DNA of 39,314 bases from an uncultured Rhodospirillales bacterium. Its GTDB lineage: Bacteria; Pseudomonadota; Alphaproteobacteria; Azospirillales; Azospirillaceae. The DNA lies in contig CAIOBP010000252.1 in assembly GCA_903856295.1 (NCBI GenBank), positions 1-39,314 of the forward strand, read 5' to 3'. Below, one piece after another: positions 1,582 through 6,926 of this stretch. A model generated the notes under the pieces. It was given only the letters and a program-made list of their open reading frames with translations. It ran no database searches and was not told the DNA's origin. How positions within the stretch are numbered: the first letter of the stretch is position 1; each line of letters starts with the position of its first letter. The translations under genes were made by a program, and so were the position numbers.

Positions 1582-3909
1582 TTATCCGGCGCGTCGCTTC
1601 GGCTTGCCTTGCCCAAGCTGCTCCAGCACGCTGGTCATCAGGGTCAGGTGCGCGGTGTCCATGGGGAATTGCAGGCGGGTGCCGTGATCGGTCAGGCCGG
1701 CGATGCGCGCCTTGACCGGCTTGGCGACGCCTTCCAGAGACAGCTCAACCTGGGTTCCGAGCGGCTGGTCGATGCGGGTGTTGAGCCAGGCGCCGCCGAT
1801 GGAAATCTGGCTGGCCCGGGTGGCCACCTTGTTGCCGCCGATGTTGACATGGGCCGGGGCATCCACCGAAAGGCGATGGAACTCGTGCTTGGAGCCGGCG
1901 CCCTTGATCGCCGACAGGAAGTCCTTGACCTCGACGCTGAGTTTCTCGGATTGCCCGGCCATGGTGTCGGAGGCGGCGCGGACGTTGGCCGAGGCCGTGA
2001 TGGTCTGGTCGGCGGCGCTCCGGACCAGACTGATGCTTTGGGCGATTTCATCGGCGCTGGAGGAAACGAACTGGACATTGCGGGCGATTTCGTCGGTGGC
2101 GCTCTGCTGCTCGGTGATCGCCGCGGCGATTTCGTTGGTCGATTCGTGAATGTGGGTGATGGTCTTGCCGATCGCCTGCACGGACTCGACGGTGCTCGAG
2201 ATCGAATCCTGGATGCCGGTGATTTGTTGCGAGATATCGACGGTGGCCTTCTGGGTTTGCTGGGACAGCGACTTGACCTCGGAGGCCACCACCGCGAAGC
2301 CTTTGCCCATCTCACCGGCCCGGGCCGCCTCGATGGTGGCGTTGAGCGCCAGCAGATTGGTCTGGCTGGCGATGTTCGAGATGATGCCGATGATGTTGCC
2401 GATGCGCTCGGAGGCTTCGCGCAGCATTTCGACCTTGGCGATCACCTGCTTGGATTGTTCCGCCCCCTCGGCGGCAATATCGCTGGAGTTGTGGACCAAA
2501 TGGCTGATTTCGCCGATGGCGGCGGTGAGTTCCTGGGAGGCCGAAGCCACCGACTGGGCGTTTTCGCTGGTTTGGCCGATGGCGCGGGTGACGATGTCGA
2601 CCTGGGTGTTGGTTTCGGTCGACGCCTCGTTCATCGAGCGGGCGGTGGCGGCCATGGCCCCGGAGGCTTCCGACAGGCTGCCGAATACGCCCGAGACGCT
2701 GGAGCCGAACATGTCGATCAGCTCCTCGGATTCCTCCTGGCGGCGGCGCTTGGCTCGTTCCTCTGCTTCCTGGACCTGTTTGAGGCGCTCGTTCTCGATG
2801 GCGCTGTCCTTGAACACCTGAACCGCGCGGGCCATGTCGCCGATCTCATCGAGATTTTCGAGGGCGGGCACCTCGATGGCATGGTCGCCGGCGGCCAGGG
2901 TGGTCATGGTCTTGGTCATGCGGATGATCGGGCGCGAGATGCCGGCGCCGATCAGCCAGGCGATCAGGAAGCCACCGATGAAGACCACCGTCGAAAGAAT
3001 GACGGTGGTCTGGATGGTCGCGTCGATTCTGCTATCGACCTCCTGGTCCAACTTGGTCAGGCCGTTGCCGATGTCGGTGGTCAGGCTCGTGCTTTTCTTC
3101 TTGAGAGCTTCAGCCTGTTCGGCCAGTGTCTTGTTGGATATTTCATGATAGCTGTTGATGTAGCCGATCTGCTTTTCAAAGGTTGCGGACAATTCCAATA
3201 CCCGCTGCTGAACCTTGTCGATGCGGGTGCGCAGGGTCGGGTCGTCGACGCGGAGGAGGATGTCGGCGATCGACTTTTTCAGCCGCGCCATTTCCTCCTT
3301 GGCCTTGGCGGCGTCGTCGGCGTTGCCGCTGTTCTCAAACCGTCCGGCGTTGTAACGCAAGGCCCAGATCGCTTCCCGGGCCAGGCCGAGATAGTAGGCC
3401 AGCTCGAATTTTTCCGCCTGGGTGGCGGCGTCCATGGCGCGGGTGAGGTTGATCGCCGCCGACTCGGTATTCGGGGTGAAGCCGGTTTCGGTGATCCAGT
3501 CGCGCGCTTCGCGGATTTCCACCGCCTTGTGGGCGGTGGCGAAGTAGGTCTCGGTCAGCTTGCGCAGGTCGGCGTTCTGCTCGCGCAAGTTCGGCTCTTT
3601 CAGCGTGCGGTCCAGGGTGTCGAACGACCCCTTGATGACGCCGACCAGTTCCTCGGCCCGCTTGAATTCGGGCAGGCTGCCGGTCGTCAGGTAGATGTAG
3701 ATGTTCCGGCGCAGGCCGACGAGATTGCGCTCGATTCGCTGCACCTCCAGGGCATCGGCGGCATAGGCGACGTAATTGCTCTGAAACTCGGCGATGACGG
3801 TCAGGCTCCGGTACGAGATGACGGCCAGAATTCCCAACATCAACAGAATGATGGCGAAGCCGCCATAAATTCTCGTGCCGATGTAGATGCGGTTCAGCCA
3901 AGCGGTCAT
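1582..3909 (-). CDS. Methyl-accepting chemotaxis protein with PilZ-like C-terminal domain
   Basis: This is a 775-residue transmembrane chemoreceptor. A first membrane segment near residues 12-33 precedes a long, mostly helical periplasmic domain. A second segment near 305-330 leads to a HAMP domain ([19 protein letters not shown]). The signalling tip carries the canonical hairpin ([22 protein letters not shown], then [18 protein letters not shown]) that contacts CheA and CheW. Residues 675-752 resemble PilZ but are degenerate: the RxxxR motif is not evident and the D/NxSxxG motif reads QISIGG (Gln701). Azospirillum Tlp1 is a known receptor with a functional C-terminal PilZ; here c-di-GMP binding is doubtful. 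The ATG at 3909 is chosen because GAGGA lies 8 bases upstream; a TTG at 3924 would overlap the preceding stop. It follows the sensor kinase by 11 bases, suggesting co-expression. No CheR-docking pentapeptide is seen. Confidence 0.93.
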
Positions 3910-3920
3910 CGCGGGAGTCC

Positions 3921-5459
3921 TCAAGTGGAGGGGGGGGAAGACTGAGGAATGTGCAGCGTGAAGCGGGCGCCCCGGCCGGGCGTGCTGGTGGCGGAGATCG
4001 TGCCGCGCCAGTTCTGGAGAATGCCGTAAACCACGGACAGCCCGAGACCGGTGCCCTGGCCCAGCGGTTTGGTGGTGAAGAACGGCTCGAACAGGCGGGT
4101 GAGCACGGTTTCGTCCATGCCCGGTCCGTTGTCGCTGACCGTGATCACGCAGTAATTGCCGCCCTCGACTCCGAGCCGCGACGCCCGGTAGGGCGTGATG
4201 TGGGACAGGGAGGCCTCGACGGCGATTTCTCCCCGGCCCTGCATGGCCTGGGCGGCGTTGGTGAGCAGGTTGGTCATGATCTGGGTCATTTCGACGGCGT
4301 TGATCCGGCCGGTGCCGAGCGTGCCGTCGAGTCCGGATACCGAAACGGAAACCGTGGCCGGCAGCAGATCCCGCACGAACTCGACAGCCTCCGAGATCGT
4401 GGTCGCGAACTCCCGTTCGGAGGCGACGTCGGCGTCGGTATGGGAAAAGCGCAGGACGTTGCGCACGATGTCGCGGGCCTGCTCGGCGCTGAAGATCACC
4501 TTGGCGAGTCGTTTGGCGGCGCTCTCGTGCCGGGGGGCGATCTCGGACTGAACCAGTTCGGTGTAACTCAGGATCGGTTGCAGCAGGTTGTTGATTTCGT
4601 GGGCGACGCCGCCGGCAAGCTGGCCCAGGGCCTGCAAGCGCTGGCGGCGCTGGAATTCCTGCTGCTGGGCGCGCTTCTCGGTGATGTCGTTCTGAACGCC
4701 GATGTAGGCGATGATGCGGCCGCCGCGCACCAGCGGCGCGATCATCAGGGCGTTCCAGAACTGCGTGCCATCCTTGCGGTAATTGAGGATCTCAACGTCG
4801 CAAAACAGGCCGGCCTTGAGGCAGTCCGCGATTCGGCGGGTGGTGGCGGGATCGGTCTCGGGGCCCTCGAGAAAGTCGTAATTGCGCTCGATCGCCTCAT
4901 GCAGGGCGTAGCCGGTGATGCGGCTGAACGATTTGTTGACGTAGATCAGGGGCATGCCGGGACGCAGGGCGTCGGCGATCAGAATGCTGACCGGGCAGGA
5001 CTCGATGGTCGCCACCAGCAACTCGCTTTGGGCGATGCTGTCGCGCCACGCCAGTTCGCGCTGAAAGCTCTCGGTGACGTTGGTGCCCAACCCCCGGAAG
5101 CCGAGAAAGCCGCCATCGGCGTCGAAGCGCGGCTTGCCGCTGAGTCGCGCCACGATGGTGCGGTCGGGCGAGGCGACCAGACTGCACACCCGGCCGGAAA
5201 AGGGGTGCCGGAGCGCGAGTGCGTCCTCGATCTGGCTGTGATCGTCGCTGCTGCTGGCGGGGGGAGGGGTCAGAACGTCCGCGAAGAGTCGCCCGAGCAG
5301 ATCGCCGCGCCCCGCGCCGGCCAGCGGCTCATAGCGCTCCGACAGGAAGGTCAGATGGCCATCGCGACCGGTTTCCCACATCCATTCCTGGGAGAAATCG
5401 GAGACATCGAGCAGGCCGGCCAAATCAATACCCGACTCGGACTGGTCTCGAATATTCAT
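3921..5459 (-). CDS. PAS/LOV-like sensor histidine kinase lacking the LOV cysteine
   Basis: This 512-residue protein has no membrane segment and should be cytoplasmic. Residues about 20-135 form a first PAS-like domain. Residues about 145-262 form a second PAS domain very close to LOV photoreceptors: [38 protein letters not shown] and [12 protein letters not shown]. The LOV signature NCRFL reads NYDFL, with Tyr194 where the flavin-binding cysteine should be. The kinase core has the phosphoacceptor His287 in [15 protein letters not shown], an N box [11 protein letters not shown]1 SDNGPGM, F box LFEPFFTTK and G2 [12 protein letters not shown]. No receiver domain or cognate regulator is adjacent; the chemoreceptor gene follows 11 bases downstream. 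Flavin binding is possible, but classical cysteinyl-adduct photochemistry is excluded if this reading is right. The ATG at 5459 has a modest GGA ribosome site. Confidence 0.9.
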
Positions 5460-6221: not shown

Positions 6222-6818
6222 TTAGAGAACCTCGACGCGAACCGCTTCCGGTCCCTTCTGGCCCTGACGAACGGTCAGGCGCACCGGCTCGCCATCGGCG
6301 AGGGCGTGCAGTCCGGACCGCTCAAGGGCGCTGCGATGGACGAACACGTCCTTGCCGCCACCCTGGGGGGCCACGAAGCCGAAGCCCTTGTCGGCATTGA
6401 ACCATTTGACGGTGCCGTCAATGGTGTCGCCGCCCTGGTCGTCGTCATGACCGCCCCAGCCGCCGCCGCTCCGGGCGCCGCCGCCGCCGCGCGGGCTGTG
6501 CCCGAAGTCGCTGCGGGGAGCGGAACGCTGCGGACGGCCACCGCCGGAGCTGGCGGTCGAGGTGTCGACCGAGCTGATGGCCGCGACCTGCGGACCCTTG
6601 GGGCCGCTGGACAGATCGCAGATGATGGTGGCGCCTTCCGGCAGCGCATCATGGCCGGCGGCCTGGACCGCCGAGATGTGCAGGAAGGCGTCGGGTGATC
6701 CGTCCTCCGGCGTCACGAAGCCGAAGCCCTTGGTCGGATTGAACCATTTTACCGTGGCGCGCGCGCCGCTCTGGGTGATCGCGGGCGCAGAGAAGGAACG
6801 GGGAGAGCGGTCGTACAT
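6222..6818 (-). CDS. Double cold-shock-domain protein
   Basis: This 198-residue protein carries two complete cold-shock domains. The first is residues 20-84 (TVKWFNPTKGFGFVTPEDG, DAFLHIS) and the second 133-198 (TVKWFNADKGFGFVAPQGGG, DVFVHRSAL). Each has its RNP1 (KGFGF) and RNP2 nucleic-acid-binding motifs. The linker, residues 85-132, is rich in Gly, Ser and Arg and probably disordered. Cold-shock proteins bind single-stranded RNA or DNA and act as RNA chaperones; two-domain versions are common in alphaproteobacteria. The ATG at 6818 (MYDRSPRS) is chosen over the in-frame ATG at 6881, which would add 21 residues of unlikely sequence. A leader of about 100 bases separates it from the acetyltransferase gene, with a possible promoter TTGCAT-18-TGCTAC. 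A strong terminator follows. Confidence 0.92.
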   Translation of the reverse strand: MYDRSPRSFSAPAITQSGARATVKWFNPTKGFGFVTPEDGSPDAFLHISAVQAAGHDALPEGATIICDLSSGPKGPQVAAISSVDTSTASSGGGRPQRSAPRSDFGHSPRGGGGARSGGGWGGHDDDQGGDTIDGTVKWFNADKGFGFVAPQGGGKDVFVHRSALERSGLHALADGEPVRLTVRQGQKGPEAVRVEVL

Positions 6819-6926
6819 GTAATGTCTCGTCGAGTGGAAAGAACTGTGGGCGTAGCATGGCCTAACGGGCGCAATATGCAAGGACAGATTAATGCCTCAG
6901 CCGAAAGATATAATTTTTTGTGTCCG

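Follow-up and report, generated by a model that had tools for sequence, protein, structure and literature searches.

A LOV-derived PAS domain with tyrosine at the adduct-cysteine site and altered flavin contacts in a bacterial sensor histidine kinase

The window analyzed here, a stretch of 39,314 nucleotides, encodes a sensor histidine kinase (Table 1) with a second PAS domain derived from that of a genuine LOV photoreceptor. The preferred reading, held at a probability of about 0.6, is that this is a former LOV input domain without adduct photochemistry and, to judge from its pocket residues, with weakened or changed ligand binding. Under this proposal, the protein would be a soluble orphan kinase in which the LOV-derived domain lost, within the genus, both FMN-phosphate arginines and the adduct cysteine (replaced by Tyr here, Phe in the nearest ortholog and Leu in the paralogs). 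FMN binding would probably be weak or absent, and selection would keep the domain as an input and dimerization module. The signal could arise from a change in the pocket, which might hold another ligand or a loosely held flavin, or from the partner PAS domain, and, as in YF1/FixL, would reach His287 along a coiled-coil linker that is in register. Because the thiol is missing, established LOV chemistry implies that the cysteinyl-adduct photocycle should no longer be possible; loss of photochemistry is very likely, and weak or changed ligand binding is likely.

Table 1. Coordinates in the window of the kinase, its domains and pocket residues, and the adjacent chemoreceptor-like gene (AsLOV2 equivalents in brackets).
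Feature	Position	Strand	Evidence
Sensor histidine kinase, 512 aa: PAS, LOV-like PAS, HisKA, HATPase	3921..5459	-	ORF/translation, Pfam, syntenic ortholog in G050
First PAS domain, residues about 28-130	5070..5378	-	Pfam PAS/PAS_4 (28-121 / 30-130); 57% identity to G050; fast evolving
LOV-derived PAS domain, residues 145-262	4674..5027	-	Pfam PAS_9 (168-261); PDB LOV matches by sequence and fold; pLDDT 95
HisKA, residues 278-342, phospho-acceptor His287 (AHEINN)	4434..4628	-	Pfam; DIT-to-His spacing 29
HATPase_c, residues 389-506	3942..4295	-	Pfam
Tyr194 at LOV adduct-cysteine site (C450)	4878..4880	-	Alignments; Phe in ortholog
Asp195 replacing FMN-phosphate Arg (R451)	4875..4877	-	Alignment
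Glu198 replacing FLQG Gln (Q454)	4866..4868	-	Alignment
Ala211 replacing F-alpha Arg (R467); Trp here in FAD-PAS domains	4827..4829	-	Alignment
Asn226, isoalloxazine contact kept (N482)	4782..4784	-	Alignment
Asn236, isoalloxazine contact kept (N492)	4752..4754	-	Alignment
Gln256, active-site Gln kept (Q513)	4692..4694	-	Alignment
Chemoreceptor-like protein (HAMP, MCP signal, PilZ)	1582..3909	-	Pfam; order kept in G050; ATG at 3909

Sequence and fold searches agree on the origin of the second PAS domain, with LOV proteins making up all of its best 50-60 PDB matches by either route. The sequence matches include Chloroflexus CagFbFP, Chlamydomonas phototropin LOV1 and aureochrome (E about 1e-20 to 4e-27), and the AlphaFold model of the domain (pLDDT 95.1) retrieves only LOV structures among its top 50. 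The domain shares ∼45% identity with true LOVs, and its score is 141 bits on a profile for which only Cys-bearing LOVs from beyond this genus were used. Of the further PAS regions of the same genome (G000) tested on this profile, the best, a Cys-bearing LOV-like domain, reaches 131 bits and the rest at most 91. An earlier reading of the DNA letters alone (the sequence-only reading) had called the domain LOV-like, and these searches bear this out, placing it with LOV proteins and not with generic PAS domains.

A second LOV-like histidine kinase of this genome (L002:1501-1851; G000:C103:21839-22189) keeps the cysteine (RSCGFLHGTDTD) and has Ile for the active-site Gln (TIGVISD), a pattern shared with Gln-deficient LOV receptors (PMC9098866). 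The genome also has another flavin-based blue-light receptor family, represented by a short BLUF protein at G000:C157:4140-4412, and no photosynthetic reaction center gene was found in the genus. Met replaces the Cys in a LOV-like domain of Methylococcus capsulatus (L072:6001-6354), which possibly belongs to the redox sensor MmoS.

Pocket residues are given here in AsLOV2 numbering, which we take to map through Cys450 to residue 194. Tyr194 aligns with the adduct cysteine of the PDB LOV domains and of YtvA in YF1, exactly where the sequence-only reading had put it, and the cysteine of the NCRFLQ motif is accordingly absent. The same reading had seen nearly the whole LOV pattern preserved; this is true of the motifs, including YIGVQNDIT, but not of the pocket, where three further positions differ. 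Both phosphate arginines (R451, R467) are lost to Asp195 and Ala211, and the FLQG Gln has become Glu198. The isoalloxazine contacts N226, N236 and Q256 are kept, as are N449 (N193), L453 (L197) and G511 (G254). In the alignment, the pocket thus retains its ring contacts and has lost those to the phosphate and ribityl groups. Residue 211 is neither the Arg that is the key to FMN nor the F-alpha Trp that is the key to FAD, and the PAS domains L003-L006 of the same genome carry Trp at this position. A survey of PAS domains lists Arg, Cys and Asn as the conserved FMN residues and the F-alpha Trp as the FAD determinant, and 57% of its LOV cluster carries the Cys (PMC10468136).

Loss of the arginines is associated with loss of the cysteine. 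Among 135 non-redundant LOV-like domains drawn by similarity to the Tyr194 domain, both arginines are missing in 12 of the 41 Cys-less members versus 2 of the 94 that bear Cys (Fisher p about 1e-5, with shared ancestry ignored). The two Cys-bearing exceptions (L105, L130) suggest that the phosphate arginines may be dispensable, and they count against the preferred reading. So does an engineered LOV variant in which the FLQG Gln is replaced by Glu (Q89E), which still binds FMN according to the title of PDB 9u5n. In the LOV protein W619_1, whose arginine cluster is intact, flavin occupancy is only about 10% (PMC5314338), which means that loading is not decided by phosphate contacts alone.

Phylogenetic analysis of the LOV kinases places the cysteine loss within this genus, which forms one clade (100/100). 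A Cys-bearing copy from congener G047 (RNCDFLHG) branches first and is sister (95/82) to the Tyr/Phe and Leu types, from which it follows that the cysteine was lost inside the genus. The nearest outgroup kinases (L020-L022, L025-L027) all carry Cys, which is likely the ancestral state. The Tyr kinase pairs (100/99) with its syntenic ortholog in congener G050, which has Phe at the adduct-Cys site, a LOV-like domain 79% identical to the Tyr194 domain, and the same three isoalloxazine contacts. The other branch is the Leu type (G047, G048, G049), with Q513 replaced by His, N482 by Gln and N492 by Cys. These kinases (L048 in G047, L046 in G048, L047 in G049) share a consistently remodeled pocket in which all three ring contacts are lost, suggesting a new ligand or none. 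The Cys-bearing copy of G047 already has Asp for the Arg after the Cys site, so loosening of the phosphate site may have preceded the loss of the cysteine. That copy (L045:3276-4874), which also has His for the FLQG Gln and YWA for FWN next to its Asp after the Cys, may itself be an unusual photoreceptor. Tyr or Phe in the RN-x-x-FL motif is rare: a class-wide search for the DNA pattern RN[Y/F]xFLxGxxTD matched only this genome among 385. The scan of genome contigs yielded no relative nearer than 51% identity, and the close orthologs come solely from a separate genome search.

The kinase ORF (5459..3921, minus strand) starts with ATG, and no membrane segment is apparent in its product, the most hydrophobic 19-residue stretch falling within the LOV-like domain. 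The protein qualifies as a HisKA sensor histidine kinase through His287 and both Pfam domains, HATPase_c being intact. Between G000 and G050, dN/dS is about 0.12 in the LOV-like domain, 0.17 in HATPase and 0.11 in the HisKA region, and about 0.37 in the first PAS domain. The LOV-like domain is under purifying selection and is maintained rather than decaying. The LOV-kinase part also aligns to YF1, a YtvA-FixL fusion, with E 1e-38, and its DIT-to-His linker is exactly 7 residues, one heptad, shorter than that of YF1. A signaling coiled coil is expected to stay in register when linker lengths differ by whole heptads. Together, purifying selection and a linker one heptad off YF1 argue that the LOV-like domain still has a job. 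An intact kinase core and a functional sensor of an altered input had both been proposed for this protein; the former is confirmed, and the latter gains support from the LOV ancestry, the Cys-to-Tyr change, the intact kinase and the maintenance of the domain by selection. It would be improbable, although several ligand residues are lost, that the domain is a decaying relic without a sensory role and that the first PAS domain, or nothing, controls the kinase: the LOV-like domain is better conserved than the first PAS domain, is free of frameshifts and keeps its linker register.

A further observation against the preferred reading is that N226, N236 and Q256 are all kept, whereas the Leu-type paralogs lost all three, which hints at continued binding of a flavin ring in the Tyr/Phe type. 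Beside the preferred reading, one rival stays in play at a lower probability: the domain could be a Cys-less flavin sensor of the LOV* kind, holding riboflavin, FMN or FAD through these residues. In this reading, a change of redox state, or photoreduction that yields the neutral semiquinone, would protonate N5, flip Gln256 and switch the kinase. Beyond the complete set of ring contacts and the active Gln, the domain has the conserved Tyr and Trp donors, such as W235, Y184 and Y227, of a known electron-transfer pathway (PMC5645311). YF1 and VVD continue to signal by photoreduction when their Cys is missing, and the natural BAT-LOV* binds FAD, FMN or riboflavin and changes shape on reduction (PMC4682037). 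Against this stand the loss of both arginines, the two acidic residues near the phosphate/ribityl site, and the possible crowding of the flavin face by a large aromatic side chain in place of the Cys. BAT-LOV*, itself a modest flavin binder, shows that photoreduction may be poor even in such proteins.

A direct role for the tyrosine is harder to sustain. The sequence-only reading had suggested that Tyr194 might quench a neighboring flavin by electron transfer, and a selected functional replacement acting as donor or quencher would have the right position and a precedent, Tyr being able to donate electrons to flavin in LOV proteins (PMC5645311); the rarity of the motif in the class also speaks for it. 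However, the syntenic G050 ortholog has Phe, which lacks the redox-active phenol, the related Leu-type copies have Leu, and the idea presupposes flavin binding, which is putative here. Given the Phe of the ortholog, the redox activity of a Tyr is not a conserved feature, and the quencher suggestion, which finds no support, appears still less probable than outright decay. That the residue is a tyrosine probably matters little. More speculative than any of these, and very unlikely, is a riboflavin or other phosphate-free flavin that forms with Tyr194 and Gln256 a BLUF-like Tyr-Gln-flavin proton-coupled switch controlling the kinase.

Genomic neighborhood analysis ties the kinase to the chemoreceptor-like gene, which begins 11 nt past the kinase stop codon; the two likely form one operon. 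The gene order M16 peptidases, acyl-CoA ligase, cold-shock protein, kinase, chemoreceptor and the gene at 286-1422 is common to G050. None of the chemoreceptor homologs in the other congeners adjoins a kinase of this type, so that G000 and G050 are the only genomes in which the pairing is seen. Among the neighboring window genes tested, in a scan up to 21.2 kb, no response regulator turned up, so the kinase looks like an orphan. The chemoreceptor-like protein (1582-3909) ends in a PilZ domain of the c-di-GMP-binding type and has several paralogs in the genome. The window also encodes, at 6222-6881, a protein whose two cold-shock domains are connected by a linker rich in Gly and Ser.

Cys-less LOV-like domains are common, and Tyr alone is no surprise. 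A 2015 paper described them and named Ala, His and Pro among the replacements; Tyr was not found named as a Cys replacement in its searchable text (PMC4682037). In literature searches, no work on a naturally occurring Tyr at the LOV Cys site turned up, and in a PDB search with a CagFbFP sequence given Tyr at this site, the best five alignments showed only Cys, Ala and Gln variants. The filter for LOV* proteins in PMC4682037 requires the absence of Cys and at least 9 other conserved residues, those named in its text being G59, N61, R63, F64, L65, Q66, N94, N104 and Q123. The Tyr194 domain keeps 6 of these 9 named residues and falls outside the filter, with E191 for G59, D195 for R63 and E198 for Q66.

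The domain resembles haloarchaeal BAT-LOV* in its LOV fold and sequence, its replaced Cys and its retained active-site Gln; BAT-LOV* takes up more than one kind of flavin, although the expressed protein does so only modestly (PMC4682037). Unlike LOV* proteins, which were chosen because they retain almost all of the remaining LOV residues and have Pro, Ala or His at the Cys site, it has Tyr there, also loses R+1, Q+4 and R+17, and its flavin binding is putative. The LOV histidine kinases of the YF1/FixL type share the order of LOV-like PAS domain, heptad-register coiled-coil linker and HisKA-HATPase, but the present kinase lacks the adduct Cys, has an extra N-terminal PAS domain, and has no response regulator found next to it. 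FAD-binding redox PAS domains (NifL, MmoS, Aer) are likewise placed near a signaling output and share common ancestry with LOV; their diagnostic F-alpha Trp is Ala211 here. The PAS kinases of the RE356/MS367 cluster, relatives of the LOV histidine kinases, are also alphaproteobacterial and carry an aromatic residue, Trp, at the LOV Cys site, but they are 17-24% identical to the EL346 LOV domain and have HWE/HisKA2 kinase modules, whereas the present domain is ∼45% identical to true LOVs and precedes a HisKA module (PMC10359499). Alphaproteobacterial PAS kinases that do not act as LOV photoreceptors, many of them with Trp at this site (PMC10359499), are a precedent for the preferred reading. 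The kinase described here is a further, more derived example of the known Cys-less LOV-like domains. Within the genus, a single kinase scaffold provides a small natural series: Cys in a G047 copy, Phe in G050, Tyr in this genome, and Leu together with a remodeled pocket in G047-G049. Such a series is useful for testing the path from photoreceptor to non-photoreceptor and the order in which Cys, phosphate arginines and ring contacts disappear along it.
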